Shown: positions 1,586-41,543 of the stretch, one piece after another | How the letters are laid out: every line of letters begins with the position of its first letter | Numbering within the stretch: the first letter of the stretch is position 1 | DNA from: Cytophagales bacterium | Lineage (GTDB): Bacteria > Bacteroidota > Bacteroidia > Cytophagales > Microscillaceae | Assembly: GCA_004293905.1 (NCBI GenBank) | Contig: RDZE01000039.1 | Coordinates: 1-64,000 of the forward strand | Direction of reading: 5' to 3' | Length of the DNA: 64,000 nucleotides | Notes under the pieces: generated by a model | Databases searched by the model: none | What the model was told of the DNA's origin: nothing | Seen by the model: only the letters and a program-made list of their open reading frames with translations | Made by a program: the position numbers and the translations under genes

Positions 1586-1712
1586 TCTCAAAAAACTACC
1601 TATTATCCAAGAATTTTTAGAAAATAGCAACATAAAAACCACTATGCACTATACACATATAAGCGAGAAAAGTATCAAAAAAATCAAGAGTCCTTTAAAC
1701 AATATGGAATAA
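1586..1712 (+). pseudogene. C-terminal stub of an IntI-like tyrosine recombinase
   Basis: About 40 codons remain. The frame reads LPIIQEFLENSNIKTTMHY, then THIS and KIKSPLNN, and stops at 1710-1712. LPIIQEFL-x-x-SNIKTT matches the region around the last catalytic His of phage-type integrases, and HYTHI holds the catalytic Tyr. The SPLNN ending resembles the SPLD(A/N)L ending of integron integrases and of related Bacteroidota recombinases rather than XerC/XerD ends. Everything before the stub has been replaced by the 52-bp repeat and the DUF1016 gene. It lies 170 bp upstream of the first cassette boundary and on the same strand as the cassettes, so it may be the remains of the enzyme that built the arrays. 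Assignment to IntI proper is an inference. Confidence 0.65.
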
Positions 1713-1806: not shown

Positions 1807-1844
1807 ATCAAAAACAACCTCTACCATCAAAAACAACCTCTACC
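1807..1844. repeat. tandem duplication of 19 bp in the array A leader
   Basis: ATCAAAAACAACCTCTACC occurs twice back to back (1807-1825 and 1826-1844), directly before the promoter-like box. The corresponding place in the array B leader does not have it. Confidence 0.85.
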
Positions 1845-1886
1845 TTTACTTAAAAATGTACGCGAGTTGCGTATATTATAACGTTA
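1841..1886 (+). promoter_or_regulatory. array A leader: -7-like box plus shared 31-bp integration-site-like sequence
   Basis: TACCTTTA (1841-1848) lies 8 bp before a 31-bp sequence (1856-1886) containing GAGTTGCGTATATTATAACG and ending in GTTA. The same 31 bp with one mismatch, again 8 bp after a TAnnTTTG-type box, opens array B at 38986-39016. In integrons the matching position holds the cassette promoter and the primary site attI. I infer the same role here. The right core GTTACCGCC of the first cassette starts at 1883. Confidence 0.6.
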
Positions 1887-1953
1887 CCGCCAATGCTATA
1901 AAGACAATGACAGCGAACAAAATGAACGACAGAGATAAAATGCCGACCGCACA

Positions 1954-2013
1954 TTCAAGCACATTTGGTTTTGCCGACACGCAAAGCCAAACAAAAAACC
2001 AAAAGAGCTTGAA
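1954..2013. repeat. long hairpin at the left side of cassette A1
   Basis: TTCAAGC (1954-1960) pairs with GCTTGAA (2007-2013), with an inner arm TTTGGTTTTG (1964-1973) pairing with CAAAGCCAAA (1982-1991). The loop contains GCCGACACGCAAA. A hairpin with a similar loop (CTGACACGCAAA) lies at the other end of the cassette (6403-6461). The function is unknown. It lies in the leader of the methyltransferase operon and could be an RNA structure. Confidence 0.65.
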
Positions 2014-2052
2014 TTTTGCCAACACGCAGACATAAAAACATAAATTTGAAGA

Positions 2053-3033
2053 ATGAAAGAAAGTAAAATATTCTATGAAACCGACCTTGGGAAACTACTC
2101 CTTACAGACTCTTACAAAGAGTTAAAGAATGGTACATTGAAAAAATATAAGGGCAAGATAAATCTAATTATCACTTCACCACCGTTTCCATTAAACAACA
2201 AGAAAAAATATGGAAACCTTCAAGGTGAAGAATACAAAGAGTGGTTTATTAGTCTTGCTCCAATCTTTGAAGAATTATTAGCTAATGATGGTTCACTTGT
2301 TATTGAAATCGGGAATGCTTGGGAATCAGAACGACCAGTGCAGTCTCTTTTACATTTAGAGTGTTTACTTGGGCTAGTTAAAAATTCCAATCTAAGATTG
2401 ATACAAGAATTTATATGCTATAATCCTTCAAAACTTCCTTCTCCAGCTCAATGGGTAACAGTGAATCGTATTAGGACGGTAGATAGCTATACTCATATTT
2501 GGTGGCTTGCGAAATCAGACTTTCCAAAGGCTGACAATACGAAGGTTTTGAGACCTTACAGTAAAAGTATGAAACAACTCCTCAAAAATCAGAAATATAA
2601 TTCAGGTAAAAGGCCTTCGGAACACGTGATATCTGAAAATGGATTTCTGAAAGATAATGGAGGAAGTATTGCTCATAATTTCTTTGAAATGGAGCCAATT
2701 GATGAAAAAAGAGAGGTTAGACTACCTCACAGTGTTTTAAGCTTTTCTAATACTCATTCAAACGACTACTATCTTAAAGCTTGTAGAAAAAATGATATTA
2801 TCCCTCATCCTGCTAGAATGAACCAAGGGATTGTTAGTTTTTTCATCAATTATCTAACAGATGAAAGGGACTTAGTTTTAGACCCTTTCGCAGGTAGTAA
2901 TACAACCGGAGCAACAGCTGAAAAGCTCAACAGAAAATGGTTGGCAATGGAAATTGACCGAGAATTTGCAGACCAATCAATTTACAGATTTGAAGACAAA
3001 GAACTTAATGCAGAACTTAAAATCCACTTCTAA
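2053..3033 (+). CDS. DNA methyltransferase (beta class, N4-cytosine or N6-adenine)
   Basis: The protein (326 residues) is an AdoMet-dependent DNA amino-methyltransferase. The catalytic motif IV is TSPPF near residues 41-45 (LIITSPPFPLNN), and the AdoMet-binding motif I, LDPFAGSNTTGATA, comes near the C-terminus (about 274-290). This permuted order defines the beta group, and the S in SPP(F/Y) is typical of N4-cytosine enzymes. The gene is the first of a tight three-gene operon: its TAA overlaps the ATG of the HerA-like gene by one base (TAATG). In this context it probably marks host DNA so that the partner ATPase and nuclease spare it. No specificity subunit is nearby. The modified base cannot be told from sequence alone. 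Confidence 0.85.
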   Translation: MKESKIFYETDLGKLLLTDSYKELKNGTLKKYKGKINLIITSPPFPLNNKKKYGNLQGEEYKEWFISLAPIFEELLANDGSLVIEIGNAWESERPVQSLLHLECLLGLVKNSNLRLIQEFICYNPSKLPSPAQWVTVNRIRTVDSYTHIWWLAKSDFPKADNTKVLRPYSKSMKQLLKNQKYNSGKRPSEHVISENGFLKDNGGSIAHNFFEMEPIDEKREVRLPHSVLSFSNTHSNDYYLKACRKNDIIPHPARMNQGIVSFFINYLTDERDLVLDPFAGSNTTGATAEKLNRKWLAMEIDREFADQSIYRFEDKELNAELKIHF

Positions 3034-5039
3034 TGCTAGATGTAATAAAAAAAATAACAGACATTGACTTTTTTAAAGAAGGACAAAATGAAGACCTTTT
3101 TGTGGGTAGACCTTATTCGATAAACTACAATAAGGCTAATTTACTTATTTCAGACTTTTGGAAACACAAAGTAAAAGGAATACCACAAGGTTCTTTTTTG
3201 TTGGCATTTTACGACAATCCATTTGAAGAAAACATCCAAGAAGCCTTGCTCCTTCGCGTGTTAAACCCCTCTTCCCTTCCTACGGACAATAATGTCATTT
3301 CGTCAATGATTGAGTATTACAAAGACAATCTTAATACATCAGGAAAAAAGAGTGAACTAGACGATTTCACGAGATATGAATTTAGTTTTTCAGGTTTGGA
3401 GTGCAGGATATTAGGAGCATTTTACAAAGAGGGAAATTCATTTGAATTTGGTGCTGATGTGGAAAATTTTTATTCAGCTCACAACTATAAAGTATTTAAA
3501 GCAAGCTCCAAAATTTTAGAGCTTATAGTAAATCAAAGAGACAAAGATTTAGTTGCAGGTGGTGAGAATGAATTTCCTATAGGTACAGTTCGCTATAGCT
3601 CAACTAGACGATTCTATGCTACAGATGATTCAGTTAAAAGTGTTAAGGTATTTATCAATCCAGGTGATATGCTTGGAAAGAGAACCGCTCTTTTCGGTAT
3701 GACTAGAACAGGTAAGTCTAACTCTGTTAAGAAAATAATTGAAGCTTCTGTTGAGATTTCTAGAAAATCGAAATATAAAACTTTAAGCACCAATTCAAGT
3801 CAGTCTGATAACCTTATGGAAGCAATTGACAAGGAATCAGGTGCACCTAAATTTCCTGTTGGTCAAATTATTTTTGATATTAATGGTGAATATGCCAATG
3901 CTAATATGCAAGATAAGGGAACTGCTATTTTTGAATTATACTCTGACATTACTACAAGGTTTTCGACCTTGCCTAAGACAGATTTCAAAATTATGAAGGT
4001 TAACTTCTATAATGACTTAGAAGCAGGTTTTGAGCTTGTTCGTTCTCATTTATTACAAAGTTCAGGCAACTACATAGAAAGCTTTTGTGCAATCGACTTT
4101 ACACCACCCGAGAATTATGATTTTTTCAGTTCTGAGGGCACTCGTCACGATAGATTAAAAGCTGCTTATTTCTGCTGCCTTTATAAAGCCAATATTCCGG
4201 TTCCAAAGAATTTCAAAGTTAAGTTTCGTGGCAATGACATACTAAATAAGTTAGTAAAAGAAGATGGCTCAATAAAACCAGACAACGGAATTTCACTTGA
4301 AGACGCTTACAATTGGTTCAAAGCCGTTGCAGATAATTATAATACTCACGAATACTTTAGTAAATATAAAGCTCAAAAGGGTCACGAATGGGCAGACGAA
4401 GATTTAAAAGCAGTACTAGTATTTCTTTCAAGAAAAAAAGACGGTAGAGTTGTAGATGGATATGTTAAACTTAGAAGCTTAAAGGAATTACATACAGAGA
4501 CAATAGACAAACCTTTTGATGTTGAGATAATTGATGAGTTAAGAAAAGGTAAGATTGTCATTATTGATTTGTCTCAGGGAAATCCTGAAATTCAACAACT
4601 ATATTCTGAGCGAATTTGTAAGAAGATATTCAATGATTCTATGAATAGATTCATTTCAAACTCACCCAACAATTTTATCCAATTCTATTTTGAAGAGGCT
4701 CATAATTTGTTTCCTAAAAAGGACGACAAAGATTTAAGTCAGATATATAACCGAATTGCCAAGGAAGGTGCAAAATTGAATCTTGGAATGATTTACGCAA
4801 CACAAGAGGTTAGCTCTATAAGTTCAAACATTCTTAAAAATACTCAAAATTGGTTTATTGCTCATTTAAACAACGAAGATGAAACTAGGGAGCTTAAAAA
4901 GTATTACGACTTTGAAGATTTTACAGAATCACTAGTTCGTTTTAGTGCTAAAAATGACAAAGGTTTCGTGAGAATGAAAACTTATTCAAATCCGTTTGTC
5001 GTACCAGTCCAAATAGACCAATTTTTAGCAAATAAGTAA
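3033..5039 (+). CDS. HerA/FtsK-like ATPase (DUF87 type)
   Basis: This 668-residue P-loop ATPase resembles HerA, the hexameric DNA translocase that works with NurA nuclease. The Walker A motif GMTRTGKS lies near residues 222-229. The Walker B region KIVIIDLSQG is near 507-516, and the HerA-typical acidic helix YFEEAHNLFP follows near 550. The N-terminal 200 residues would form the beta-barrel (HAS-like) region of the family. The ATG overlaps the methyltransferase stop codon, which suggests translational coupling, and the NurA-like gene starts 3 bp after its stop. Known HerA proteins pump or open DNA ends for a partner nuclease, and HerA-nuclease pairs are known in anti-phage systems. A defence role here is an inference from this operon. 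Confidence 0.85.
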   Translation: MLDVIKKITDIDFFKEGQNEDLFVGRPYSINYNKANLLISDFWKHKVKGIPQGSFLLAFYDNPFEENIQEALLLRVLNPSSLPTDNNVISSMIEYYKDNLNTSGKKSELDDFTRYEFSFSGLECRILGAFYKEGNSFEFGADVENFYSAHNYKVFKASSKILELIVNQRDKDLVAGGENEFPIGTVRYSSTRRFYATDDSVKSVKVFINPGDMLGKRTALFGMTRTGKSNSVKKIIEASVEISRKSKYKTLSTNSSQSDNLMEAIDKESGAPKFPVGQIIFDINGEYANANMQDKGTAIFELYSDITTRFSTLPKTDFKIMKVNFYNDLEAGFELVRSHLLQSSGNYIESFCAIDFTPPENYDFFSSEGTRHDRLKAAYFCCLYKANIPVPKNFKVKFRGNDILNKLVKEDGSIKPDNGISLEDAYNWFKAVADNYNTHEYFSKYKAQKGHEWADEDLKAVLVFLSRKKDGRVVDGYVKLRSLKELHTETIDKPFDVEIIDELRKGKIVIIDLSQGNPEIQQLYSERICKKIFNDSMNRFISNSPNNFIQFYFEEAHNLFPKKDDKDLSQIYNRIAKEGAKLNLGMIYATQEVSSISSNILKNTQNWFIAHLNNEDETRELKKYYDFEDFTESLVRFSAKNDKGFVRMKTYSNPFVVPVQIDQFLANK

Positions 5040-5042
5040 GGT

Positions 5043-6377
5043 ATGTCATACAACAAAACAGGAAACAGGCCATTTGAGTTTGCTAGTAAGAGCAACCATA
5101 TTCATATTATCAAAGACCCAGAAGTTCAGAAGTTTTTAAGCCAACACGAACTTCCCAAAGAGGGTGATGAGATTTCTCTATTTGACCAGTATTTGGTGGA
5201 TATAGATTATGATGTTGCAGATTCTGTAGAATTCATTATTGCAGTAGATGGAGGTGATACAACGGTTCCAGTCAAATCAAAATTCCCTTCTTCCACAATA
5301 ACCTTTTTTCAGTTCGGGGCTAACTTATTGAAAATTTCAGACCTTAAAGAATTGAGGGAGCAACCTTTCATTTCTCCACAATCAATCTCAAAACTAAAAG
5401 AATTACAGCGGATAAAATTTACCTTACCGACCAAGAACATTGGCTTAATTGATGAAAATGGTAAACGAGCAACACTGACTTATTCTGTCAGAAAAGCCCT
5501 TTATGAATTTTTCAAGCAACACGATTTCCTATCAACTTTGAAATGGTTTCTTTTTGAAGAGTACAAGAAAAATCCAAAGTCAGAGAGAGAACTTGCAAGC
5601 CACCCAAATAATTCTGCGACAAAGAAAGTGGTTATTGAAAGAGATAAAATCAATTCCGAATATAAAATACAGCACGCAGACGGTGATTTGTTTTTGACAG
5701 ATATTTTCAGGCTTCACGAAGTAGTGGATGAAGATTTAGGTGCAGGAGGTATTGTTGGCTATTTAAGAAATTTAATTGAACATTTCATTCTGATTGACAC
5801 CATTAGAGGATTGTATAGAGTTAAGAAAGATACCTTAAAGGAAGTGTTATTTGTAAAAGATGGCCCATTAGGTTTCTTTGGACAAACTGCGAATATGCAC
5901 GAGCCTATGCGAGAATTATTAAATCACTTGAATTCTGAAATAAATATCTTTTTAGCAGGAATAGAGAAATCGGGTCCGTTTGTAGAACACGCATTGGAAA
6001 TTAAAGACAAAATAAAGCAAGGACAGGCTTATTTACTTTCAAACAAGCACATTTACAAGTATATAAAACCGGGTGACTCTGACAATCCAGAAGCGTATGG
6101 GCGTTCCTCATATTATGGCAGCAAAGTAATTTTTAAATCCAGAGATGAAAGAATTTATGTGGTGACTATTCCTACTGAGAAAAGTGAAGTAGTTCTTAAT
6201 CCTATTAAGTCGGACTTTAAGCATATTGACATCATAATGAAATACATTGAACGACTAAAAAGTGATATGTATGACAATTCACTTTTACCGATTGCACTTG
6301 CAAACAAACTTGTTTCACTTTCAGACCACCCAAGCTCTGTTTTGCTTGAAAAGTTTGCTAAACACAATATAAAATAG
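5043..6377 (+). CDS. NurA-like nuclease
   Basis: The protein (444 residues) has the sparse signature of NurA, an RNase H-like, metal-dependent nuclease partnered with HerA. There is an early Asp motif, EFIIAVDGGD (about residues 62-71). A second Asp motif, LFVKDGPLGFF, lies near 270-280, and is followed by IFLAGIEKSG near 302-311, the place where NurA has its conserved (I/V)xGxxK. Overall identity to known NurA is not obvious by eye, so the call rests on these motifs and on the HerA gene 3 bp upstream. It is the last gene of the cassette A1 operon. I expect a DNA end- or strand-degrading enzyme kept from host DNA by the methyltransferase. Confidence 0.7.
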   Translation: MSYNKTGNRPFEFASKSNHIHIIKDPEVQKFLSQHELPKEGDEISLFDQYLVDIDYDVADSVEFIIAVDGGDTTVPVKSKFPSSTITFFQFGANLLKISDLKELREQPFISPQSISKLKELQRIKFTLPTKNIGLIDENGKRATLTYSVRKALYEFFKQHDFLSTLKWFLFEEYKKNPKSERELASHPNNSATKKVVIERDKINSEYKIQHADGDLFLTDIFRLHEVVDEDLGAGGIVGYLRNLIEHFILIDTIRGLYRVKKDTLKEVLFVKDGPLGFFGQTANMHEPMRELLNHLNSEINIFLAGIEKSGPFVEHALEIKDKIKQGQAYLLSNKHIYKYIKPGDSDNPEAYGRSSYYGSKVIFKSRDERIYVVTIPTEKSEVVLNPIKSDFKHIDIIMKYIERLKSDMYDNSLLPIALANKLVSLSDHPSSVLLEKFAKHNIK

Positions 6378-6402
6378 ATTGAAATGCTAATGCCTCACAG
6401 CC

Positions 6403-6461
6403 ACACACATTGCCAAGTCGCACCAGCTGACACGCAAACCAATACTTGGCAAAGAGTGTGT
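6403..6461. repeat. long hairpin downstream of the defence operon
   Basis: TTGCCAAGT (6410-6418) pairs with ACTTGGCAA (6444-6452), extended outward by ACACACA against GTGTGT. The loop holds CTGACACGCAAACC, very like the loop of the hairpin at 1954-2013. It may act as terminator of the operon. The recurrence at both ends of one cassette suggests a conserved element. Confidence 0.65.
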
Positions 6462-6512
6462 CTGCCCAATCGCACGACTGACCGACAAACAGACGAAGAA
6501 AAAGAAGCACTA

Positions 6513-6647
6513 GGCGGTAACAGGCGTTTGGCTCAATGGCGGGTGACGTGGATAATTGAACATTCTACCTCGCATCAACATTTGTGGTGTATTGACAGTT
6601 TTGTGCTCCGAAATCCGCCACTGCGCCAAGCCCCGAAACGTTATAGG
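6513..6647 (+). other. attC-like recombination site A1
   Basis: Left core GGCGGTAAC (6513-6521) is the exact complement of the cassette start at 1883. The arms TTTGGCTCAATGGCGG (6527-6542) and CCGCCACTGCGCCAAG (6615-6630) pair with few mismatches around a spacer containing TTTGTGGTG. The right core is GTTATAGG (6640-6647). Its layout matches that of the seven sites in array B. Confidence 0.7.
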
Positions 6648-6715
6648 TAATGCTTTGACGATAATGCTAACTTGAAACTTTTATGCAATAAACGAACAGA
6701 CAAAAACAAAATATA

Positions 6716-9008: not shown

Positions 9009-10064
9009 TTAACAAATTCTTGGTAATTGTTCTCCTATGGGCATATTGACCACCCTTTTCCCTCCTATTTGGCTGTTCAAAACGACTTGTTTGGGGTGCT
9101 GTTCTACTACTTTTCCAATGATGGCAGCTTCTTTGCCTTCTGGGAGCGATTTTAGAAGTTCGAGATAATCATTGGCTATTTTTTCATCTACGATACTGAT
9201 GAAAATACCTTCATTGGCTACATAGAGGGGGTCAAGCCCTAAGATTTCACAAGCCCCTTCTACTTGTTCGGCTATGGGTATGTATTTTTGGTGTAGTTCT
9301 ATGCCTATTTTTGCATCGCGCGCTACTTCATTGAGCACTGCGGCTACTCCACCCCGTGTAGGGTCTTTGAGCAGGTGAATTTGTTCGCCGAAGTGGTCTA
9401 AAAGTATCTTTGTGGCGTGGTGTAGTGCTTTAGTATCACTTTGCAGGGTGGTTTCGAAGGTAAGTCCTTCTCTGACAGACATAATGGCTATACCGTGATT
9501 GGCTATACTTCCGCTGATGATGATGGCATCATTGGGTTTGATACGTTGTAGGCTAATTTGGGCTTTGGGGTGTAGTGTTCCGATGCCTGCCGTGTTGATG
9601 AAAATTTTATCTCCTTTTCCTTTTTCTACTACTTTAGTATCACCTGTAACTATCTGAATGCCTGCTTTTTCAGTAGCTACTTTAATGGCTAATAGTATTT
9701 CCCAAAGTTCTTCCATTGTGAGTCCTTCTTCTAAAATAAAACTAAGTGAAAGGTATTGAGGAATGGCACCACACATGGCTAAGTCGTTCAATGTGCCATG
9801 AATGGCTAACTCGCCGATATTACTATTGGGGAAAAATAGGGGTGAAATCACAAAACTATCTGTAGTAAAGGCTATTTGACCAGTGATAGGCAAGATAGCA
9901 CCATCGTGTTTTTGGGCAAGAATTTCGTTGTTCAGAATATTAAAAACGCCACTTTCTAAAAGTTGATTGGTGAGTAAGCCACCACTGCCGTGCCCTAAGG
10001 TGATGACCTCAAAGTCTAATTTTGGCATAGGGCATTGCAGTTGCATAGAGAGTTTAGGTTGCAT
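9009..10064 (-). CDS. hypE: hydrogenase maturation protein HypE
   Basis: HypE (351 residues) dehydrates the carbamoyl group placed on its C-terminal cysteine by HypF, giving the thiocyanate that becomes the CN ligands of the [NiFe] site. The sequence begins with ITLGHGSGG, contains the ATP-binding GDTKVVEKG and the LKDPTRGGVA motif of the PurM/SelD-like fold, and ends in PRIC with the essential terminal cysteine. The gene follows hypD by 12 bp. Confidence 0.96.
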   Translation of the reverse strand: MQPKLSMQLQCPMPKLDFEVITLGHGSGGLLTNQLLESGVFNILNNEILAQKHDGAILPITGQIAFTTDSFVISPLFFPNSNIGELAIHGTLNDLAMCGAIPQYLSLSFILEEGLTMEELWEILLAIKVATEKAGIQIVTGDTKVVEKGKGDKIFINTAGIGTLHPKAQISLQRIKPNDAIIISGSIANHGIAIMSVREGLTFETTLQSDTKALHHATKILLDHFGEQIHLLKDPTRGGVAAVLNEVARDAKIGIELHQKYIPIAEQVEGACEILGLDPLYVANEGIFISIVDEKIANDYLELLKSLPEGKEAAIIGKVVEQHPKQVVLNSQIGGKRVVNMPIGEQLPRIC

Positions 10065-10076
10065 GTTTTCTTGTTT

Positions 10077-11192
10077 TTATTGAGTGATGATGCTTTCTGT
10101 TTCTTCTTTGGTTTGGGCAAAATGATAATAAGCAGCGCAAGCCCCTTCAGAAGATACCATAGGTGCGCCTAAAGGAGTGATAGGGGTACATTTTTTACCA
10201 AATTGGGAGCATTGGTGTGGTTTTTTGATGCCTTTGAGCACCTGCCCTGCTATACACTCGGAAGATTCTTGGGCTTTTTCAAGTGTGATTTCAAATTTTT
10301 GGTCTGCATCGTACAGTGCCAATTCGGGGCGTAGTGCGTAGCCACTTTTAGGAATAGTGCCGATACCGCGCCATTCTCTATCGCATATCTCAAAGACCTG
10401 AGCCATTATTTTGCGTGCTTCGGGGTTGCCTTCGGGCTTTACTACGCGGCTGTATTGGTTTTCGAGATGGGCTTTTCCTTGTTCTAATTGTTGCACTACT
10501 TTGTAAATACCCTCTAATAAATCTACAGGCTCGAAACCCGTTACGACTATCGGAATTTGGTAGCGTTGCACAATAGGCTCGTATTCGCTTAAACCCATAA
10601 TAGTACATACATGCCCTGCGGCTAAAAAACCTTGTATGGTGGCGGTTTCATCTTGCATAACGGCTTCCATCGCAGGTGGCACTAATACATGGGAGGCAAG
10701 AATGGAGTAGTTGGTAATGCCTTGCCTTTGGGCGTGCAAAACAGAAAGTGCATTGGCAGGGGCAGTAGTTTCGAAACCTACCGCAAAAAAGACAACTTCT
10801 TTTTGAGGGTTTTCTTTGGCTAACTGTACGGCTTCTAAAGGCGAATAAAGTATTCTAACCTCTGCACCTTGCGCTTTGGCTTCTAAGAGGCTTTTTTGGG
10901 AGCCCGGTACGCGGAGCATGTCGCCAAAAGAGCAAAGTATGACATTGGGTTGTTGTGCTAAATAGACTGCTTTATCGATAAGATGCAAAGGGGTAACGCA
11001 AACAGGGCAACCCGGTCCGTGTACCATTTGTACTTTTTGGGGAAGCATGGAAAGCAGTCCATTTTTGACTAAACTGTGTGTTTGTCCTCCGCATACTTCC
11101 ATGATAGTCCATGTTTGTGTGGTGATTTGGTTGAGTTTGTGAATGTATTTTTCTACCCATTCGGGGTTGCGGTATTCGGTGATGTATTTCAT
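10077..11192 (-). CDS. hypD: hydrogenase maturation protein HypD
   Basis: HypD (371 residues) is the [4Fe-4S] scaffold on which, with HypC, the Fe(CN)2CO unit is put together. Visible motifs are MEVCGGQTHS, the GPGCPVCVTP loop with its CxxC thiols, GFETTAPA, and the C-terminal cysteine cluster (ECIAGQVLKG, then CSQFGKKC and GACAAYY). The length is normal. It lies 17 bp after hypC. Confidence 0.96.
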   Translation of the reverse strand: MKYITEYRNPEWVEKYIHKLNQITTQTWTIMEVCGGQTHSLVKNGLLSMLPQKVQMVHGPGCPVCVTPLHLIDKAVYLAQQPNVILCSFGDMLRVPGSQKSLLEAKAQGAEVRILYSPLEAVQLAKENPQKEVVFFAVGFETTAPANALSVLHAQRQGITNYSILASHVLVPPAMEAVMQDETATIQGFLAAGHVCTIMGLSEYEPIVQRYQIPIVVTGFEPVDLLEGIYKVVQQLEQGKAHLENQYSRVVKPEGNPEARKIMAQVFEICDREWRGIGTIPKSGYALRPELALYDADQKFEITLEKAQESSECIAGQVLKGIKKPHQCSQFGKKCTPITPLGAPMVSSEGACAAYYHFAQTKEETESIITQ

Positions 11193-11209
11193 ATTTGTAT
11201 GGTTTTGAG

Positions 11210-11464
11210 TTAGTTTTCAGGCATTAATTCGTCTAATTCGCCTATTTCGGCAAGGTATTGAAATGTTTTTTTGGCTTCTTGCTCATCTACAATGCTGATG
11301 GCTACGCCAACGTGTACGAGCACATAGTCATTGATTTTGGCAGCGGGCACCATCTCGAGGCTTGCTTCTTTGATGATGCCTCCAAATTGTACTTTTGCCA
11401 TGCGTGTGGTATCATTGAATTGTTTTTCGATGGATATGATTTTACCCGGAATTGCTAAACACAT
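11210..11464 (-). CDS. hypC: hydrogenase maturation chaperone HypC
   Basis: The 84-residue HypC/HupF-type chaperone starts with MCLAIPGKI, which includes the essential Cys2 that binds the iron complex and the large-subunit precursor, and has the VHVGVAISIVDEQEA segment of the OB-fold. Its ATG overlaps the 3' end of hypF by 10 bp, indicating one transcript. Confidence 0.96.
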   Translation of the reverse strand: MCLAIPGKIISIEKQFNDTTRMAKVQFGGIIKEASLEMVPAAKINDYVLVHVGVAISIVDEQEAKKTFQYLAEIGELDELMPEN

Positions 11465-13758
11465 AATTGTAAATTGTTTTTAAGGTTTATGGAATAATGT
11501 CCTACTATAAGTTGCCCAAAGGCTATATTTTCGTCATTGGTTGGTATTTTTTCGTGAAAATGGAGTTGGTATTTTTTTTCTAATCTTTGTTTTAAAAGTG
11601 TGATTAAAAGCATATTTTGGAATACGCCTCCACTAAAAGCCAACTGTTGTACTTGTTGCTTTTCAGCGATGTGGTCTATGTATTCTACACATCTGATATG
11701 GAGTTTGAGTGCTATGTATTCCTTATTTTTTTTATTTTCTATGTCTTTTTGTATTTCTTGCCAGCAGTGCAATGGGTCGGGGGCGGGTTCGATGATGGTA
11801 TTTTTCCGCCATGCTTTCCAAGCCATTTGCTCGAGATAGGCGGCGGCTTGCCCCTCGTATGATGCTTTATCGAGGAGGGAAAGTGAGGCAGCTACGGCAT
11901 CGAACACTCTGCCCATGCTGGAGGTTTTGAGTGTGTTTTGAGTGAGTATTTTTTGGTAGATATTCCATTCTGTAGTTGTAAAAAGAGGTTGTATATTTTC
12001 GTAAGAGGTTTGGTATTGATGTGCTAAACACAAGGCTGATAGGCGTGGTTCTTTGGGCATTTTATCGCCTAATATGAAGGGAAAGTAGGGCAGATGGTGT
12101 ACTCTTTCTATCTGTTTTTGTTGATAAACAAAAAATTCTCCTCCCCATATTTGCCCATCAGTTCCCCAGCCCGTACCGTCCCAGATAATTCCTAATATTT
12201 TTTCGTTGGAATCAAGGAGTGTTTTTTCGGCTAAAATGGCTGCAAAATGCGCTGTATGATGCTGTACTTGTAGGAGTGGGATTTGGTACTTTTCGCTGAG
12301 TGTTTTTCCCCATTGTGTGGAAAAATATTCGGGGTGTTGGTCAGTGATTATCTTTTGGGGTTGCGTGTTGAAAAGTTGTAGGTAGTGTTGTATGATATGA
12401 CAATAGTTTTCTTGAGCCTCGAGGCTGTCTATATCGCCTATATATTGAGAAAGAAATATATTTTTTTGGTGTGAAAGAGCGATAGTGCTTTTCATCATTG
12501 CTCCTGTGGCGAGCATGGTGTCTTTCTGTAAAATATTGGTTGAATCTATATAATTGGGTGCAAATCCTCGCGCGCGCCTTAGGAGGTGGGTGTGGTTTTG
12601 TTCGTCTAATTGAACTATACTATCATCTTGCGGAATGAGTATGGGGCGGTTGTGTGTGATGATATAATCGGCGATGAGTGCTAACTCTGAAAAGGCTTTT
12701 TCATTGGTAAATACGATGGGTTGTTGGCTAAGATTGCCACTTGTTGCAACGATTGGTTTTTTAAATTTTTGGAGTAGAATGGCAAAAAGTGGGTTGTAGG
12801 GCATCATAATACCTACTTTGTCGAGTTGTGGGGCTATTTCTTGGAGTGCTATTGTGTGTTTTGCTTCGGCGAGAATGGGAAGCAAGACAATGGGACTTTC
12901 AGAACTTTCTAAGCAGTTTTTGGCTTTTTCAGAAAGTACTATGTCTTTTGTTATACTTTCAACATCGGGATACATGAGCGCAAAAGGCTTATGAGGGCGT
13001 TTTTTGCGTTGGCGTAGGGTGCGTATGGCTTTGGCTTGTGTGGCATCGCAGGTAAGCAAATAACCTCCTATCCCTTTAATGGCTACAATTTTTCCGTCTT
13101 TCCAATATTGTATGATTTCATTCAGGATAGTAGGTGTATGTGTATAAAGTGGTATGAGTGTGTTGTTTTCGTTTTGTTCTTGGTGAATTACTTGGTAGCT
13201 GTGTATATCAATCGCGCATTGTGGGCAACTATTCGTTTGCGAATAATATCTTCTATCTTGAGGATTTTGATACTCTTGTTGGCAGTGTTTGCAGGGTTCA
13301 AAATGTCGCATTGTGGTATGTATGCGGTCATAGGGCAGTTTTTCAATGATGGAGTAGCGCACTCCACAATTGGTGCAGGTAATGAATGGATATAAATAAC
13401 GCCTATTGTGGGGGTCGAAAAGTTCGCTTTTGCATGCTTCGCAGAGGGCAGCATCTGGAGTAATGAGTAATTGAGGGGTGTAGTTGGTTTGGCTGTGTTT
13501 GATTTCGAAATTATCAAAGTATCTTTCTTCCATTTGGGCTATCTCTACTTGCGTAATTTTAGCCAATGGTGGGCTTTGCAAAAGTAACTGGTCTTTGAAG
13601 TGGCTCAGTTGTGTGTCTTCTGCATTGATTTCAATATGCACACCATTGGCATCGTTGCTTACCCAGCCTTTTAACTTCATTTCTTGAGCCAAACGAAATA
13701 CAAAAGGTCTGAAGCCTACGCCTTGTACTTGTCCCAAAATATGAAGGTGATAGGTCAT
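11455..13758 (-). CDS. hypF: hydrogenase maturation carbamoyltransferase HypF
   Basis: HypF (767 residues from the chosen start) makes carbamoyl-AMP and moves the carbamoyl group to HypE. Domains in order: acylphosphatase (residues 1-90, GQVQGVGFRPF), two zinc-finger units (CEACKSEL, CTNCG, CKHCQQEY, CPQC; about 105-190), a YrdC-like domain (about 210-390) and a Kae1-like domain with HHTAHFAAILAE. The start at 13758 is set by homology to the acylphosphatase start and by an ATGA overlap with the hypB stop codon; the frame is open further upstream, but that part would lie inside hypB. Confidence 0.95.
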   Translation of the reverse strand: MTYHLHILGQVQGVGFRPFVFRLAQEMKLKGWVSNDANGVHIEINAEDTQLSHFKDQLLLQSPPLAKITQVEIAQMEERYFDNFEIKHSQTNYTPQLLITPDAALCEACKSELFDPHNRRYLYPFITCTNCGVRYSIIEKLPYDRIHTTMRHFEPCKHCQQEYQNPQDRRYYSQTNSCPQCAIDIHSYQVIHQEQNENNTLIPLYTHTPTILNEIIQYWKDGKIVAIKGIGGYLLTCDATQAKAIRTLRQRKKRPHKPFALMYPDVESITKDIVLSEKAKNCLESSESPIVLLPILAEAKHTIALQEIAPQLDKVGIMMPYNPLFAILLQKFKKPIVATSGNLSQQPIVFTNEKAFSELALIADYIITHNRPILIPQDDSIVQLDEQNHTHLLRRARGFAPNYIDSTNILQKDTMLATGAMMKSTIALSHQKNIFLSQYIGDIDSLEAQENYCHIIQHYLQLFNTQPQKIITDQHPEYFSTQWGKTLSEKYQIPLLQVQHHTAHFAAILAEKTLLDSNEKILGIIWDGTGWGTDGQIWGGEFFVYQQKQIERVHHLPYFPFILGDKMPKEPRLSALCLAHQYQTSYENIQPLFTTTEWNIYQKILTQNTLKTSSMGRVFDAVAASLSLLDKASYEGQAAAYLEQMAWKAWRKNTIIEPAPDPLHCWQEIQKDIENKKNKEYIALKLHIRCVEYIDHIAEKQQVQQLAFSGGVFQNMLLITLLKQRLEKKYQLHFHEKIPTNDENIAFGQLIVGHYSINLKNNLQLCV

Positions 13759-14489
13759 ACGGTTTGTGCGGCATCTGCTACTAAGTTGGTTTCTCTTTTT
13801 TCTTTGAGTTTGGCAACTAACCAATTGCACCAAGCCTCTATGCCTTCGCCAGAAGTACTGGAAACTGTTATGTGTTCTATATTGGGGTTTACTTCTTTAG
13901 CATCTTTGATAACTGCCTCTACCGAAAAAGGTAAATAAGGTAATAAATCGGCTTTAGAAATGAGCATCATTTCGCTGGTAAGAAACATTTTGGGGTACTT
14001 GCGGGGTTTGTCGTCTCCTTCGGTAGTGGCGATGAGCGTAATGCGGTAATCTTCGCCCAAATCGAAAGAGGCAGGGCAAACTAAATTACCAACATTTTCT
14101 ATAATAAGTACATCGGTATTGTCTATGTCTATCTTTTGCATTGCCTGCCATATCATCTGTGCTTCTAAGTGGCAGATGCCTCCTGTTACGATTTGTAGTG
14201 CCTCTATGCCTGTTTGTTTTATTCTCTCGGCATCGCGTTCGGTTTCGAGGTCGCCTACCAATACTTTGATTCTTAGGCGGTCTTTGAGGCGTTTGGCGGT
14301 TTCTTGCAAAAGGGTGGTTTTGCCGCTTCCTGCCGAAGATACTATATTGATGAGTAAGATATTGCGTTCGTTTACTGCCTTACGAATGGCATCTGCTACA
14401 AAATCGTTGGCTTGGAGTAGGTGCATGGTGGTGTTGTCGCATTGGATAGTGCCACGTGCATTTTTAGAAGAACGAGGTATTTGCATCAT
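13755..14489 (-). CDS. hypB: hydrogenase nickel-incorporation GTPase HypB
   Basis: HypB (244 residues) is the SIMIBI-class GTPase that helps deliver Ni2+ with HypA. The Walker A motif SSAGSGKTTLL is near residues 50-60, followed by VGDLETERDAERI, the HLEAQMIW segment and IIENVGNLVCP. There is no His-rich N-terminal stretch of the kind that stores nickel in some homologues. Storage may instead fall to the permease loop, but that is a guess. hypB lies between hypA (17 bp gap) and hypF (4-bp overlap). Confidence 0.95.
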   Translation of the reverse strand: MMQIPRSSKNARGTIQCDNTTMHLLQANDFVADAIRKAVNERNILLINIVSSAGSGKTTLLQETAKRLKDRLRIKVLVGDLETERDAERIKQTGIEALQIVTGGICHLEAQMIWQAMQKIDIDNTDVLIIENVGNLVCPASFDLGEDYRITLIATTEGDDKPRKYPKMFLTSEMMLISKADLLPYLPFSVEAVIKDAKEVNPNIEHITVSSTSGEGIEAWCNWLVAKLKEKRETNLVADAAQTV

Positions 14490-14506
14490 AATTTTATTGG
14501 TTTGGG

Positions 14507-14869
14507 TTAAGACTGATAGGTAAAATTTTCTTTGAAATGTACTTGACTAATGAGTAGTTCGTTTCCTTGAATGATTTGGTTGGTAGGCGTGCCACAACTG
14601 CACACAAAGCGATAATTTTGGACTGTATGCTCTTTTTGGCAAGCAGGGCAATGCACTACTATTGGTAAAAGGTCTATGTGCAGGGTAGTATTTGCGTATT
14701 GAGGTTCGGTTTGGGTAACTGCCTCAAAAGCAGATTGCATCAGTATAGGTTCTACATTGGCAAGTAACCCCACTTTTAGGTCTATTTGAGTGATTTGGGA
14801 TAGTTCTTCTTTAGAAAATTTATCTTCTAAGGTTCGGAATATACTACGGACTAATGAGATTTCGTGCAT
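14507..14869 (-). CDS. hypA: hydrogenase nickel chaperone HypA
   Basis: HypA (120 residues) starts MHEISLVRSI, containing His2, which binds nickel. The zinc site normally has two CxxC pairs. Here the first is normal (CPAC), but the second reads VCSCG, a CxC spacing, which is unusual for HypA. The gene opens the hyp part of the locus, 18 bp after the TPR gene. Confidence 0.93.
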   Translation of the reverse strand: MHEISLVRSIFRTLEDKFSKEELSQITQIDLKVGLLANVEPILMQSAFEAVTQTEPQYANTTLHIDLLPIVVHCPACQKEHTVQNYRFVCSCGTPTNQIIQGNELLISQVHFKENFTYQS

Positions 14870-14887
14870 ATTGTTCTATGAGAATTG

Positions 14888-16399
14888 TTAGGAAATAATA
14901 GACTTTAATTTTACGAGTGCCTCTATGTGTTTATTGGCTTCTTCTATGAAAGTTTCCTCTTCGGTAAGTTGTTTTATTTCTTGTGCTTTTTGCCACATAT
15001 CGGCATATCTTTCTTCGTTAAAGGGTTCTTCATTGCTTACATGCCAACTTGCCTCTAAGAAATTGAGAAGTGTAAGCATTCTTTCGTGAGGGAAATATTG
15101 GGCTTCTCTTATTTTTAATACTTCTTCGTAGAGTTCTAAGGCTTTGGCGTAGTTGTCGGCTTTTTTCATGGGAGGGTAGAGTGTCATCGCATTGGCGTAG
15201 TTGTTGCAAATGGTGGCATATTCTATTGGGAAGTTTTGTTTGTCGAAATAGCTGAGGGCTTCTTTGAAAGAGGAAGCACTAAGGGCAGCCCAAACGCTTC
15301 TTTTTTTGTTTTCATCGGGCATTTCGGAGTAAATGATGCCTAAATGATGGTGGATTTCGGCAAACATCTCAGGGGAGTCTTCTTTGGTAAATATTTTGAG
15401 TGCGCTTTGGAAAGTTTCTAATGCACTTCGGTAAAATTGTGGATTGCCATTTTTTGACCAAGTGTATAATAACACAGCTTTTCTTACTAAGGCATTGGCT
15501 TGTAAAAAAATAGTACTGGGGTCATTGAGGTACTGTATGGCTTTATTGATGTACCCTAATGCTTCTGAAAAACTATCTTCTAAGTTGGCTATCCAAGTAG
15601 CATCGATGAGGAGCAATCCTGCTTCTGTCCATTTTTCTTTTTTCTCATAGTATTGAAGTGTATCCCAAAGTAAGGGTTTGAGTTTTTCCCAAAGAGCTGA
15701 ATCATAAGGAATTGTGAGTTTTTGCATCAATAGTTGTACTTGTATGTATTGTACAGAAAAAAAGGCTTCGGATTGTTTGGGTAGCCAAGCAAGGATAGTT
15801 GCGATGAGGTCTTCGGCAGCCTCGAGTTGTTCTGTATCTAAAAGTAAACTTAGGTATTGTTTGGCGGTGAATGCTTTTTGGTTGGAGTTGGGCGCAGTTT
15901 GAATTGCTTTTTGATAGTATTTTTGTGCTTCCACCATACCTGTTTCGCTATCGGCGTAGCCATAGTGGTAGGCAATGGCTAAGTTGTGGAGTTGTCTATA
16001 GGTATTTTTTTCTGCATCTTGGATATACTGAAAATCTATGGGGTAGTTGTTGAGTATTCTTGCAAAAGTATCCCATTCTTTTCTGGTTTCGGGTAGGTTT
16101 TGGGTGTAGTGCCAAGTTTTTTCCAGATTTCCCAATAAGCCAAATACAAAAGCCAAGAAGTTGTTTTTTTCTAACTCTAAAGGTTCAAGGAAAAGATAAG
16201 GAGGTATGATATTGTTCCAATCGAGCATCACCTTGAATCCTTTTTCTTCTACGGCTATGCTTATCTGAGATTGGTTATTTTCAATGGTTGCTATGTCTTC
16301 GCAAGGCTCTATATGAAGAAGTTCGTGTAGTCTTTCTTCAGTGGCAATCCATTCTTCTATGGTTTTGATTTGATTAGTTGGGGTGTAAATTGATAACAT
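14888..16399 (-). CDS. TPR-repeat protein in the hydrogenase locus
   Basis: A soluble, helical protein of about 503 residues. Several tetratricopeptide-like pairs are visible, such as YHYGYADSETGMVEAQKYYQKAI and EIHHHLGIIYSEMPDENK, and AYA/ALELYEEVLKIREAQ near the C-terminus. I chose the ATG at 16399 (MLSIYTPTNQ) because the upstream ATG at 16462 would overlap the previous gene by 89 bp; the chosen one overlaps by 26 bp. The gene lies between hydrogenase-linked hypothetical genes and hypA. I infer a scaffold role in assembly of the enzyme, but no catalytic motif is visible. Confidence 0.75.
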   Translation of the reverse strand: MLSIYTPTNQIKTIEEWIATEERLHELLHIEPCEDIATIENNQSQISIAVEEKGFKVMLDWNNIIPPYLFLEPLELEKNNFLAFVFGLLGNLEKTWHYTQNLPETRKEWDTFARILNNYPIDFQYIQDAEKNTYRQLHNLAIAYHYGYADSETGMVEAQKYYQKAIQTAPNSNQKAFTAKQYLSLLLDTEQLEAAEDLIATILAWLPKQSEAFFSVQYIQVQLLMQKLTIPYDSALWEKLKPLLWDTLQYYEKKEKWTEAGLLLIDATWIANLEDSFSEALGYINKAIQYLNDPSTIFLQANALVRKAVLLYTWSKNGNPQFYRSALETFQSALKIFTKEDSPEMFAEIHHHLGIIYSEMPDENKKRSVWAALSASSFKEALSYFDKQNFPIEYATICNNYANAMTLYPPMKKADNYAKALELYEEVLKIREAQYFPHERMLTLLNFLEASWHVSNEEPFNEERYADMWQKAQEIKQLTEEETFIEEANKHIEALVKLKSIIS

Positions 16400-16679
16400 T
16401 TTGATTTGTTTTTTGAGTTCCACGTGCATCTTTTTGCATAGTTCTTTTGAATAGTTCGGCATGTAAAATTGCCTTTTTTTCCGATTCGTAGTCTGCCATT
16501 TCTTGGCATATAAATCGTAAGGGGTCGTGTATAGAAATGTAGAGCATTGTCAGACACCATCGCCCTTTTGATGGGGCAATATAGTAGCGTACTTCACTGT
16601 CTTTGAGCCAAGCACCTTCTTGCATGAATATCCAATCTTGGGCAGTACCTTTAGTTTCGGGTGAAAATTGTAGTGTCAT
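16374..16679 (-). CDS. hydrogenase-associated hypothetical protein
   Basis: A 101-residue protein rich in aromatic residues (DWIFMQEGAWLKDSEVRYYI, then RWCLTMLYISIHDPLRFIC). No known motif, signal peptide or membrane helix is seen. It is encoded 24 bp downstream of another small gene and overlaps the TPR gene, so it is co-transcribed with the hydrogenase genes. I do not recognise the family. Confidence 0.65.
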   Translation of the reverse strand: MTLQFSPETKGTAQDWIFMQEGAWLKDSEVRYYIAPSKGRWCLTMLYISIHDPLRFICQEMADYESEKKAILHAELFKRTMQKDARGTQKTNQNVINLHPN

Positions 16680-16703
16680 GGTATCTAACAGTGGTTTAGG
16701 TTC

Positions 16704-17075
16704 TTATAAATTAATGACTAACATTTTTCTTTTTTCTCTGATTTCGTATTCTAATGTGCGGTCTTCATTGGGTATTTCGTTGTCTATCAATGTTTCTCTG
16801 ATGGAAATGCTTTTTTCAGGGTTTTCACCTCTTTGTTTGAGCATTTGCATGGCGGGTTGGTGTAGTTTTTTGAATACTTCGTCAGTATAACTCACAATGA
16901 ACAGCTTTTTAATGGCTACTTGGTAAGCGATATACACAAAGGGGCTTTCGCCAAAAAGTGCATCAGCTATAGTTTTATGCAGTATAATATGGTCGTTTTT
17001 GAGGTATACTTTTGGGATATTCTCATTGTTTTGTTCGCGCAGTTGGTCTATGTATTTGGCTGGTGGTATGAACAT
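16704..17075 (-). CDS. hydrogenase-associated hypothetical protein
   Basis: A 123-residue soluble protein beginning MFIPPAKYIDQLREQ. It has alternating strand/helix pattern (FVYIAYQVAIKKLFIVSYTDE) and a charged C-terminal half. No catalytic motif can be named. It starts 5 bp after the end of the maturation protease gene, so it belongs to the structural-gene operon. Confidence 0.7.
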   Translation of the reverse strand: MFIPPAKYIDQLREQNNENIPKVYLKNDHIILHKTIADALFGESPFVYIAYQVAIKKLFIVSYTDEVFKKLHQPAMQMLKQRGENPEKSISIRETLIDNEIPNEDRTLEYEIREKRKMLVINL

Positions 17076-17080
17076 AGTAT

Positions 17081-17569
17081 TTAAGGAGTTAGGGTATTTT
17101 CGTAGAGTGTTTCTTGCAGTATATTCACTAAATTATCGGCGGCTTCTTTCACTGAAAGGCTCATTTGTATTTCTAAACGGGTGTCTTCTATGGCTATTAG
17201 GTATACTTCTATGTTTTTGGGATACTCTTCTTGCAGTATTTTTTTGGCATAAGACAATGCCTGACTCCATTTTAGACTGTGTAGAAATACTAAGGGGTCG
17301 TCTTCTATGTATCCTTCTATTTCGTTGGCAGGTACTTTGAAAAGCGTTCCTATGGGTTCGCCTGAGTGAATTACGGCATCTATGATGATGATGCGCTGAT
17401 GCCCTTTGAGTTGGAAAAGCACCTCAAAGGCAGATGTTCCCATATCGAGTAGGGTGATATGCTCGGAAGCGATGCCTTTCTCTTTTAATTGTGTTATGAC
17501 ATACACCCCTACGGCATCATCACTTCTGACAGGATTACCAAATCCCATCACTACGGTTTTGTCAGTCAT
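17081..17569 (-). CDS. hupD: hydrogenase maturation protease (HupD/HyaD family)
   Basis: A 162-residue endopeptidase of the HybD/HupD type. Motifs are MGFGNPVRSDDAVG at the N-terminus (the GxGN...DDG-like nickel-sensing loop, here DDAVG), LDMGTSAFEVL with a conserved Asp, and IIIDAVIHSGEPIGT. The enzyme cuts the C-terminal tail of the large subunit after the conserved His once nickel is in place. The target HupL is encoded 89 bp upstream. Confidence 0.92.
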   Translation of the reverse strand: MTDKTVVMGFGNPVRSDDAVGVYVITQLKEKGIASEHITLLDMGTSAFEVLFQLKGHQRIIIIDAVIHSGEPIGTLFKVPANEIEGYIEDDPLVFLHSLKWSQALSYAKKILQEEYPKNIEVYLIAIEDTRLEIQMSLSVKEAADNLVNILQETLYENTLTP

Positions 17570-17658
17570 TTTTTCGATTAGTTAGTGTGTTATTTAAGAG
17601 AATAAAGAGGCGTTTGCATCTCTTATCAAACAATACAAACGCTCTTATGGGTAAGGTA

Positions 17659-19251
17659 CTATAATTTGAATTGGGCTAATTGTTTGCCTGATTTCTCATC
17701 GTGAGCGTGCACAGTACATACCAAACAAGAATCAAATGAGCGTGCCACCATACCTACTTCTACGGGGTCGTGTGGGTCTTCTATTTCTGTGCCTGTGAGT
17801 GCGGCTTCGATGGGTCCGGGGTTGTTGCCTTCGTCATTGGGTCCTACGTTCCAAGTAGTAGGGGCAATCACTTGGTAGTTTTTAATCACACCACCTTCTA
17901 TTTCTATCCAATGCGCCAATGCGCCACGCGCGGCTTCGGTAGCTCCAAATCCTTTTCCGTCTATTTCTTGTGGTTTGATGTAGAACTCTGCATCTAAGTC
18001 TATTTCAGTAAGCCATTGATTGATGAGCTCGTACAAACGTGGGGCTTCGTGTACGCGCGCAAGTGTGCGGGTGAACACACTGGGTCCCATTTTTTGCATA
18101 ATATCTCCGAATAGTGGGTCTTGAATTTGGTGCGCTTTATTGGCAGGGTTCGAGTTCATGATTACTCTTGAAAGAGGACCTGCTTCGGCAGCGAAGCCCA
18201 TGTATCGGGGTGCTTTTGCCCAGCTATATTTGCCATCAAATTGGGTATTGACCAAGTTTTGCGATTCTAAAGGAGTGGGCAGGGGTTCGTTCCAAGGGTG
18301 TGCAGCGGCTACATCTTCGTACCAAGAGTGTTTTACGTGCTCTAATACTTGTTGGTGGTCAAAAACGTGGTAGTTTTTGCCGTCAAAGAATCCACTGGAA
18401 GAGATAAGGGCGTTGTTTCTGCCTTCTATGGTGGGTTTATTATAGTGGTCTTTGTGTAGGTACGTACCATAGGCTAAGAATTTGCCCACACCTTGCCCAA
18501 ATTTATCCAATCCGAACTCTAAGGAAGCTCTAATAAACAAGCCTAAGTCGCTATTGCGTTGCGATTCGTTTTCTTCTACCCATGCCATGAGGTCGTCCCA
18601 AGATTTGATTTGTAAGTATCGTTCTACGGAGCAACCCAGCCAAGTAGTTTCGAGCCAGTCGTGTCTGAATTGGTTCATGATGGCGTGTGCGCGGGTGATG
18701 TCTTTGAGTGTAGGGGCACACATTACACCGCCGGGCACCATATAACTGGAGTGAGGCCATTGCCCCCCAAAAAGGGCATAGACTTCTACGGGTCTGCCGC
18801 TGGCAACTACGCCCGATTGGAAGGAAGTACCTACATAGGCAGAAAAACGTTTGGCTACTTCTTGGTATAGCGGTTTGTTTGCAAATTTTTTATTTGCCAA
18901 ATCAGTTGCAAAAATAGCATAAAACCAACGTGGTATACTTTGTATGGTTTCGGTTGCCTGACCGATGGCTCTGAGTAAGAGGGCATTGGGTGTAAGTGTA
19001 GTTTTCCAAGCGGTATCTAAGGCAGAGGACGCACAATACAAGTGAGAACCTCCGCAAATACCACAAATACGAGGCGTAACAATAAGCCCTGATTGAGGGT
19101 CTTTGCCTGCCATGATGCGCTCGAAACCACGAAACATGGCGGCTTGAGTATGGGCACGCGTTACTACACCATTTTCCATATATACTTTCACATCTAAGTC
19201 GCCTTCTACGCGCCCTACAGGTGATATATTGAGTTCTTTGACATTTGCCAT
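17659..19251 (-). CDS. hupL: [NiFe]-hydrogenase large subunit, group 2a uptake type
   Basis: The catalytic subunit (530 residues) holds the Ni-Fe centre. The L1 motif RICGICGGSH is at residues 61-70, and the L2 motif DSCLVCTVH is near the C-terminus, followed by a 15-residue tail starting AHDEKSGK that the protease removes. The GGSH after L1 and the C-terminal sequence match the cyanobacterial HupL / group 2a class of H2-oxidising enzymes rather than membrane-bound group 1. It lies 19 bp after the small subunit gene. Confidence 0.96.
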   Translation of the reverse strand: MANVKELNISPVGRVEGDLDVKVYMENGVVTRAHTQAAMFRGFERIMAGKDPQSGLIVTPRICGICGGSHLYCASSALDTAWKTTLTPNALLLRAIGQATETIQSIPRWFYAIFATDLANKKFANKPLYQEVAKRFSAYVGTSFQSGVVASGRPVEVYALFGGQWPHSSYMVPGGVMCAPTLKDITRAHAIMNQFRHDWLETTWLGCSVERYLQIKSWDDLMAWVEENESQRNSDLGLFIRASLEFGLDKFGQGVGKFLAYGTYLHKDHYNKPTIEGRNNALISSSGFFDGKNYHVFDHQQVLEHVKHSWYEDVAAAHPWNEPLPTPLESQNLVNTQFDGKYSWAKAPRYMGFAAEAGPLSRVIMNSNPANKAHQIQDPLFGDIMQKMGPSVFTRTLARVHEAPRLYELINQWLTEIDLDAEFYIKPQEIDGKGFGATEAARGALAHWIEIEGGVIKNYQVIAPTTWNVGPNDEGNNPGPIEAALTGTEIEDPHDPVEVGMVARSFDSCLVCTVHAHDEKSGKQLAQFKL

Positions 19252-19270
19252 ATTTTGATGAGTTAGAGTT

Positions 19271-38970: not shown

Positions 38971-39016
38971 TATCTTTGCCTAAAGATGTATGCGAGTTGC
39001 GTATATTATAACGTTA
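38971..39016 (+). promoter_or_regulatory. array B leader: -7 box plus shared 31-bp integration-site-like sequence
   Basis: TATCTTTG (38971-38978) fully matches the TAnnTTTG box, and a TTTG lies 23 bp before it (38944-38947). Eight bp later starts the 31-bp sequence shared with array A (38986-39016; one mismatch), ending at GTTA, where the first cassette begins. Upstream, GCGCATTTTGTATTG (38872-38886) and a diverged copy at 38937 also echo the array A leader. Interpreted as cassette promoter plus attI-like site. Confidence 0.6.
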
Positions 39017-39148
39017 GTGGCTATTTTAAAGACAGTAAAACAAATCTTTGATTCCAAACACCTTGAAAATAGTTGTTTAGCGACGAAAAAACTGCGAATA
39101 AGCCGAAAAATCAGTTAAAAAAGGAAGTAGGCATTTACTTTAAATTCT

Positions 39149-39316: not shown

Positions 39317-39327
39317 ACTTCGATTTT

Positions 39328-39355
39328 ACAGGGAAGTTTTACTTAACTTCCCTGT
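39328..39355 (+). terminator. attenuator-like hairpin between precursor and maturase
   Basis: ACAGGGAAGTT (39328-39338) and AACTTCCCTGT (39345-39355) pair perfectly over 11 bp around a 6-base loop, and TTTT follows. It begins 12 bp after the precursor stop codon. A partial terminator here would give much more precursor than enzyme transcript, a common RiPP arrangement. Confidence 0.8.
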
Positions 39356-39377
39356 TTTCAATAATAAATTAAAACCA

Positions 39378-40802: not shown

Positions 40803-40810
40803 ATACAACT

Positions 40811-41539: not shown

Positions 41540-41543
41540 AAAC

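Follow-up and report, generated by a model that had tools for sequence, protein, structure and literature searches.

A 64,000-nucleotide stretch of a Cytophagales bacterium genome (contig RDZE01000039.1, positions 1 to 64,000, forward strand; hereafter "the window") contains an integron gene cassette of 4,757 bp, at 1883..6640 on the + strand, that harbors a methyltransferase-HerA-NurA operon: genes for a DNA methyltransferase, a HerA-type translocase ATPase and a putative NurA-family nuclease. Integrons are thought to store small defense functions of one or two genes, whereas here a three-gene, seemingly restriction-like system travels as one cassette. We put the probability that the cassette carries a whole restriction-like operon guarded by methylation at about two in three.

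Borders and mobility of the cassette

The sequence GTTACCGCC at position 1883, where R′ starts, is the exact reverse complement of GGCGGTAAC at 6513, with nine of nine bases complementary, as the initial annotation had reported. An attC site occupies 6513..6648 (+ strand), with the latter sequence at its 5′ end, and the cassette, measured from its R′ GTT to the next R′ GTT, therefore spans 1883 to 6640. The palindrome noticed earlier at 6513 proved to be this attC site. On the + strand, no flanking stem in the whole window is more stable than that of its AAC..GTT pair at 6519/6640 (-32.8 kcal/mol); the second-best stem on that strand belongs to another attC (-29.2 kcal/mol), and outside the cassette arrays no candidate went beyond -22.9 kcal/mol. 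An attC covariance model (R1), built from 18 such sites, scored the site at 119 bits and found 20 matches in the 3.29-Mb genome, 7 of them within the window; one related genome had about 60. No Rfam family matched the attC. The cassette thus ends in an attC with an R″ complementary to the R′ of the cassette itself, and 1883-6640 forms one integron gene cassette. The borders given in the initial annotation, 1856-6647, had to be corrected: position 1856 was dropped in favor of 1883, and 1841-1886 is an attI-like leader. An open reading frame (ORF) at 6384-6650 was rejected as a gene, as it is a translation of the 3′ hairpin described below and of the attC.

A protein search with one genome per species identified relatives of the third gene product that are 97 to 99% identical in a Flavobacteriales metagenome-assembled genome (MAG; locus L009), an Ignavibacteriaceae MAG (L010), a Flavobacteriales assembly (L011) and Sphingobacterium sp. 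T2 (L014), and 79 to 80% identical in two further loci (L012 and L013). A cassette unique to its source genome was ruled out by copies in other genomes, with precise borders in L009, L010, L011 and L014 and the same borders in L013 at approximately 75% identity. The blastn DNA alignments to L010 and L011 open at 1880/1882 and close at 6643/6644; in L009 identity breaks off inside the attC, the core of which has been replaced. The cassettes that precede the operon cassette are different in each genome. Loci L010 and L011 share 4,761 bp at 100% identity between different neighbors and are assigned to different phyla; misbinning could misplace either contig, but the same cassette lies in two different arrays regardless. 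Copies thus sit exactly between GTT sites in differing surroundings, which bears out the earlier proposal of a mobile cassette and shows that the intact cassette has moved between unrelated genomes. In L012, the operon is present outside any cassette. Compared between the window and L009-L011, the three genes had dN/dS values of 0.011 to 0.049, and all three are under strong purifying selection. The plasmid and phage collections held no near copy of the cassette or of its 3′ end, and a scan of a viral contig collection yielded no relatives.

Two side observations concern the surroundings of these copies. Parts of group II introns lie near the cassettes in L014 (477-594 and 6695-6769) and L010 (16525-16606; Rfam RF01999 and RF00029), and a neighboring cassette in L009 (9603-12801) carries two McrB/McrC-like genes, a multigene defense cassette without the hairpin pair.

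The three-gene operon

The genes are arranged as tightly as the initial annotation had described, with the methyltransferase gene at 2053-3033, the HerA gene at 3033-5039 and the third gene at 5043-6377, separated by a one-base overlap and then a 3-bp gap, all on the + strand. The first product is predicted to be a beta-class N4-cytosine DNA methyltransferase of the M.PvuII type (PF01555, E 2e-29; M.PvuII 1boo, E 1.6e-66): it is a full-length M.PvuII homologue that keeps the SPPF motif of N4-cytosine methyltransferases. The second, a HerA/FtsK-type translocase ATPase as proposed earlier, matched PF01935 (E 9.9e-12) and the PADLOC HerA model (E 1.6e-17) and contains a HerA/DUF87 domain with the P-loop GMTRTGKS; its closest solved relative is TdpA (8wet, E 2.3e-17). 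The best PADLOC match of the methyltransferase was MTase_II. A candidate Bacteroidetes-type promoter, TTG-N22-TAAATTTG, proposed from its match to the consensus only, is located at 2016..2048 (+ strand), at the foot of the 5′ hairpin; with a promoter of its own, the operon would not require a position at the head of the array.

A comparison of the HerA gene (3033-5039) with its counterparts in L014 (2042-4015) and L012 (5584-7626) revealed a mosaic. The N- and C-terminal parts are nearly identical, and the middle, at about residues 300 to 545, exists as two alleles, as if it had been swapped by recombination.

The third product is probably a divergent NurA-family nuclease, an assignment made through its relatives and not by a direct Pfam match. 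Relatives matched the NurA family PF09376 over nearly the full profile (E 5e-23, 3e-17, 1e-11 and 1.6e-6); the protein aligned with one such PF09376 match, that of L017, at E 7.8e-29, and plasmid proteins 48% identical to it bear the PGAP name "DNA double-strand break repair nuclease NurA." Its acidic residues D69, E246 and D273 are conserved in nearly all of the 20 aligned members, and we infer that they form the active site. A CxxC..CxxC (Zn-ribbon) insert present in many relatives has been lost. Several results weigh against the assignment. The protein itself had no match in Pfam, PF09376 included, nor in PADLOC or NCBIfam; it had no PDB sequence match, and PDB searches with A1 and A2 gave no NurA. 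Asn takes the place of a late-motif His that about half of the family has. The initial annotation had named a predicted structure without an RNase H-like NurA fold as a refutation; AlphaFold2, run from six near-identical rows, reached a pLDDT of 33.7 and gave no usable model, and it did not show a different fold. The NurA-like nature put forward in the initial annotation is thus upheld by the relatives, the alignment and the acidic residues, and its direct search against PF09376 came back blank.

Diverse methyltransferases accompany the HerA-NurA pair

The survey of neighborhoods suggested in the initial annotation showed HerA next to NurA at essentially all relatives examined, with a methyltransferase beside the pair in most cases. 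A PvuII-like methyltransferase is encoded upstream of the pair in the window and in L009-L015, L047 and L048; an SPPY-type enzyme of approximately 375 residues, usually downstream, in L017, L049-L051, L054, L056, L061 and L062; and a Dam/D12-type enzyme in L016, L052, L055 and L063. By sequence comparison, relatives of the pair thus have neighbors from no fewer than three unrelated methyltransferase classes, and they are carried by bacteria, an archaeon and a Vibrio phage. The pair is found on chromosomes, on plasmids, among them a Deferribacter megaplasmid and a haloarchaeal plasmid, and in a Vibrio phage beside its integrase, and its neighbors include AAA/HNH pairs and HsdM. It is patchily distributed, being present in 14 of the 395 genomes of the phylum sample. 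The initial annotation had regarded an operon conserved outside cassettes together with housekeeping genes as a sign against a mobile defense system; where the operon lies outside a cassette (L012, L015-L017 and plasmids), its contexts vary, with no fixed housekeeping set. A distant HerA-NurA-SPPY operon of two genomes (G347 and G399) is likewise found in an attC cassette with hairpins, an independent second capture of a distant version of the operon.

Two loci of this survey show rearrangements. In Deferribacter desulfuricans pDF308 (L061, 3126-6921), the HerA gene is interrupted by an IS200/IS605 element with TnpB, and in genome G606 (L046, 1489-2886) an in-frame fusion joins the N terminus of NurA to a DNA methyltransferase, possibly as a deletion product.

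A model of modification-guarded DNA translocation and cleavage

Judged by homology only, the unit would combine a methyltransferase and a nuclease, as restriction-modification systems do, and may serve self/non-self marking by a restriction-like translocating nuclease. This interpretation is strengthened by the recurrence of the pair with at least three unrelated methyltransferase classes; the view that methylation guards self DNA relies mainly on this neighborhood pattern, in which one HerA-NurA pair is repeatedly joined by unrelated methyltransferases. In the proposed mechanism, the methyltransferase would add N4-methylcytosine at a specific sequence in host DNA. The HerA ring would thread and pump duplex DNA, and a NurA dimer docked on the ring would nick or degrade DNA with unmethylated target sites, such as that of phages or plasmids. 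Methylated sites on self DNA would stop loading, pumping or cutting. A point against this model is that cyanobacterial plasmids carry HerA-NurA with an HTH gene in place of the adjacent methyltransferase, and the methylase may thus not always be the guard.

Other functions of the operon were considered. Deinococcus HerA-NurA resects DNA ends (PMC9960219), and the repair-nuclease name given by PGAP to the plasmid relatives would fit a DNA-end resection machine in which the methyltransferase travels along for maintenance and nothing is restricted; nevertheless, patchy presence, carriage on plasmids, phages and cassettes, the repeated association with unrelated methyltransferases and the AAA/HNH and HsdM neighbors make such a repair function improbable. 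Abortive infection or post-replicative triggering, for instance by recognition of phage proteins or DNA ends, in which the methyltransferase would be accessory, is slightly less so but still unlikely. A different HerA-nuclease pair does work as a dual-enzyme antiphage complex (PMC11291478), and the HerA middle is mosaic between alleles, as a sensor under pressure might be; however, the methyltransferase is full length, has its catalytic motif and is under purifying selection, and unrelated classes replace it beside the same pair. A restriction-like operon guarded by methylation accounts best for these features.

The operon was also compared with known systems. TdpABC, which is linked to phosphorothioation, has a HerA-like motor and a NurA-like nuclease guarded by DNA modification, and the present HerA is nearest to its TdpA among solved structures. 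In contrast to TdpABC, the modifying enzyme here would be an N4-cytosine methyltransferase and the operon has no phosphorothioation gene; PDB sequence searches gave no match of the third protein to TdpB. The methyltransferase is shared with the Type II system PvuII by full-length homology of M.PvuII, but a PvuII-like endonuclease is missing and an ATP-driven translocase with a putative NurA nuclease stands in its place. The HerA-NurA end-resection complex of Deinococcus and archaea unites the same two protein families in one operon, whereas the present pair is mobile, patchy and linked to a methyltransferase and lacks the Zn-ribbon insert of many relatives. A HerA-type motor with an effector nuclease is also found in HerA-DUF4297, HerA-SIR2, DndFGH and "HerA/FtsK capture" (PMC11291478, PMC10853773, PMC12839542), but no DUF4297, SIR2 or Dnd parts occur here. 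The signature genes of BREX, DISARM and DndFGH (PglZ, BrxC, DrmA-C and DndF-H) are missing from the three-gene operon. The system thus would work like a modification-guarded translocating nuclease that differs in its defining genes from TdpABC, BREX, DISARM and Dnd. "NurA" was not among the words in the texts of two HerA/FtsK surveys, and the HerA-defense literature searched, which excluded many subscription papers including the 2004 HerA-FtsK survey, described no methyltransferase-HerA-NurA set. The novelty would lie in the combination and in the cassette format, not in the chemistry. A three-gene set with interchangeable methyltransferases would offer a simple test of self/non-self discrimination by a pumping nuclease.

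A hairpin pair brackets large cassettes

Two hairpins of one model (R2), supported by covariation, lie near the ends of the cassette, at 1948..2024 (5′) and 6394..6471 (3′), both on the + strand. Both contain an internal loop with the invariant sides CACATT and AAAGAG. In the first 14 examples, 14 of 18 pairs had changed on both sides. Across 124 matches, in an alignment fitted to the model, which favors structure, 91.2% of cells pair compared with 60.2% after shuffling, and the covariation score was 0.664 compared with 0.158 for shuffled and at most 0.12 for slid alignments. No Rfam family matched the hairpin. The source genome has exactly two matches, both at this cassette, and 46 of the 247 genomes of a phylum sample contain matches, many of them as same-strand pairs 2 to 12 kb apart. 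This hairpin pair is previously undescribed.

The pair is associated with cassette size. Among cassettes delimited by attC sites in three genomes, a hairpin occurs at both ends in 13 of the 19 that measure 3.2 kb or more and in none of 52 shorter ones (Fisher P 4.7e-10, indicative only, as neighbors in one array are not independent cases and thresholds were used to draw up the lists of attC sites and hairpins). In 45 of 47 hairpin-bracketed stretches, which reach 11.6 kb in relatives, all ORFs of at least 170 codons are on the hairpin strand. Pfam searches of 100 bracketed proteins identified N6_N4_Mtase (10), N6_Mtase (8), ResIII (8), Eco57I (6), Methylase_S (5) and HsdM_N (4), compared with at most two members of each of these six restriction-modification families among 106 flanking proteins, and PADLOC agreed. 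The cassette that reached genomes assigned to different phyla has counterparts in relatives that hold whole restriction-modification operons, which make up most of what the hairpin pair brackets. Locus L106 and the window align at the 5′ end (94 bp, 87%) and at the 3′ end (268 bp, 92.5%) but nowhere in the stretch between, which indicates that unrelated cargoes share the same cassette ends, or shell.

We slightly favor the view that large cassettes in Bacteroidota integrons follow a dedicated format, in which an attC shell that has a conserved hairpin near each end is loaded with whole Type I, II, III and methyltransferase-HerA-NurA systems that are exchanged between species, and that the hairpins are a new functional DNA or RNA element that lets multigene operons travel. 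The pair would then separate an operon that can be exchanged from a shell, made up of attC and ends, that can be used again. The hairpins may serve cargo exchange, recombination of large cassettes or transcriptional insulation. Two facts argue against a general format: 6 of the 19 large cassettes are without a full hairpin pair, and the loci whose cargo was analyzed were chosen for having hairpins, so that the defense share refers to those loci only. That the hairpins are merely transcription signals, insulators or terminators needed by large cassettes with their own promoters, is doubtful, if the most plausible of the alternatives: the 5′ hairpin stands just ahead of the promoter candidate and the 3′ hairpin just past the last stop codon, but no T-run follows the latter, and generic terminators would not share the invariant internal loop. 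The ends of IS608 are same-strand hairpins, and two same-strand hairpins bracket the operon here; some bracketed operons, such as that of L015, have no detected attC. A nonautonomous single-stranded DNA transposon of the IS200/IS605 type, nested in the cassette and passively carried, is still very improbable, given that no Y1 transposase turned up in four genomes that have hairpin pairs (G087, G505, G347 and G399) and that the hairpins occupy cassette ends, which share their outer sequence, and not random positions. The Y1 transposase content thus disfavored an IS200/IS605 origin.

A role in a large-cassette format would make the hairpin pair a handle on the building of operon-sized cassettes. 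Antiphage integron cassettes (Darracq 2025; Kieffer 2025; Getz 2025, reviewed in PMC12409362) are likewise attC-bounded stores of defense genes, but those reviewed are streamlined and compact, in contrast to the three genes and 4.76 kb of the present cassette, and larger systems were described as notably absent from integron cassettes (PMC12409362).

Integron context and surroundings

Upstream of the cassette, 1605..1706 (+, the cassette strand) is what remains of an integron-integrase gene, its C-terminal end with IQEFLENSNIKTTMHYTHISEKSIKKIKSPLNN (TIGR02249 positions 282-315, E 1.9e-4). This intI remnant is 48% identical over 33 residues (tblastn E 7.5e-6) to the true IntI of G292, the genome of L010, which scored 433 bits, over the cut-off. 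No intact intI was found in this 90%-complete genome, only the remnant, which is a point against the favored interpretation of the cassette. The integrase is on the cassette strand in five of the six loci that have an integrase homologue and hairpin cassettes (L050, L080, L100, L102 and L106), and the sixth, L089, is divergent; reverse-oriented integrases have been described as usual in Spirochaetota (PMC9668308).

The leader at 1841..1886 (+) aligns over 46 nucleotides with 38971..39016 (+), at the head of a second array (array B), where a TTG/TAnnTTTG promoter candidate starts at 38945. The leader core occurs twice in the genome, each time at the start of an array, and in none of 290 other genomes of the order. 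This duplicated sequence looks as an attI-like leader would. The intI remnant, the meaning of the duplicated leader and the hairpin pair go beyond the initial annotation.

Array B extends over 38971-48700 and has at least six attC sites. Its first cassette (approximately 39010-41670) is unusual in its cargo, genes for a radical-SAM protein and a TauD-like protein. Adjacent to the intI remnant, a gene for a DUF1016/YhcG nuclease (452-1477; PDC-S02) is flanked by identical 52-nucleotide direct repeats at 1-52 and 1534-1585, which may be what disrupted intI. The cassette region is followed directly by 9009-20230, which on the - strand contains hydrogenase maturation genes and the genes for both hydrogenase subunits.

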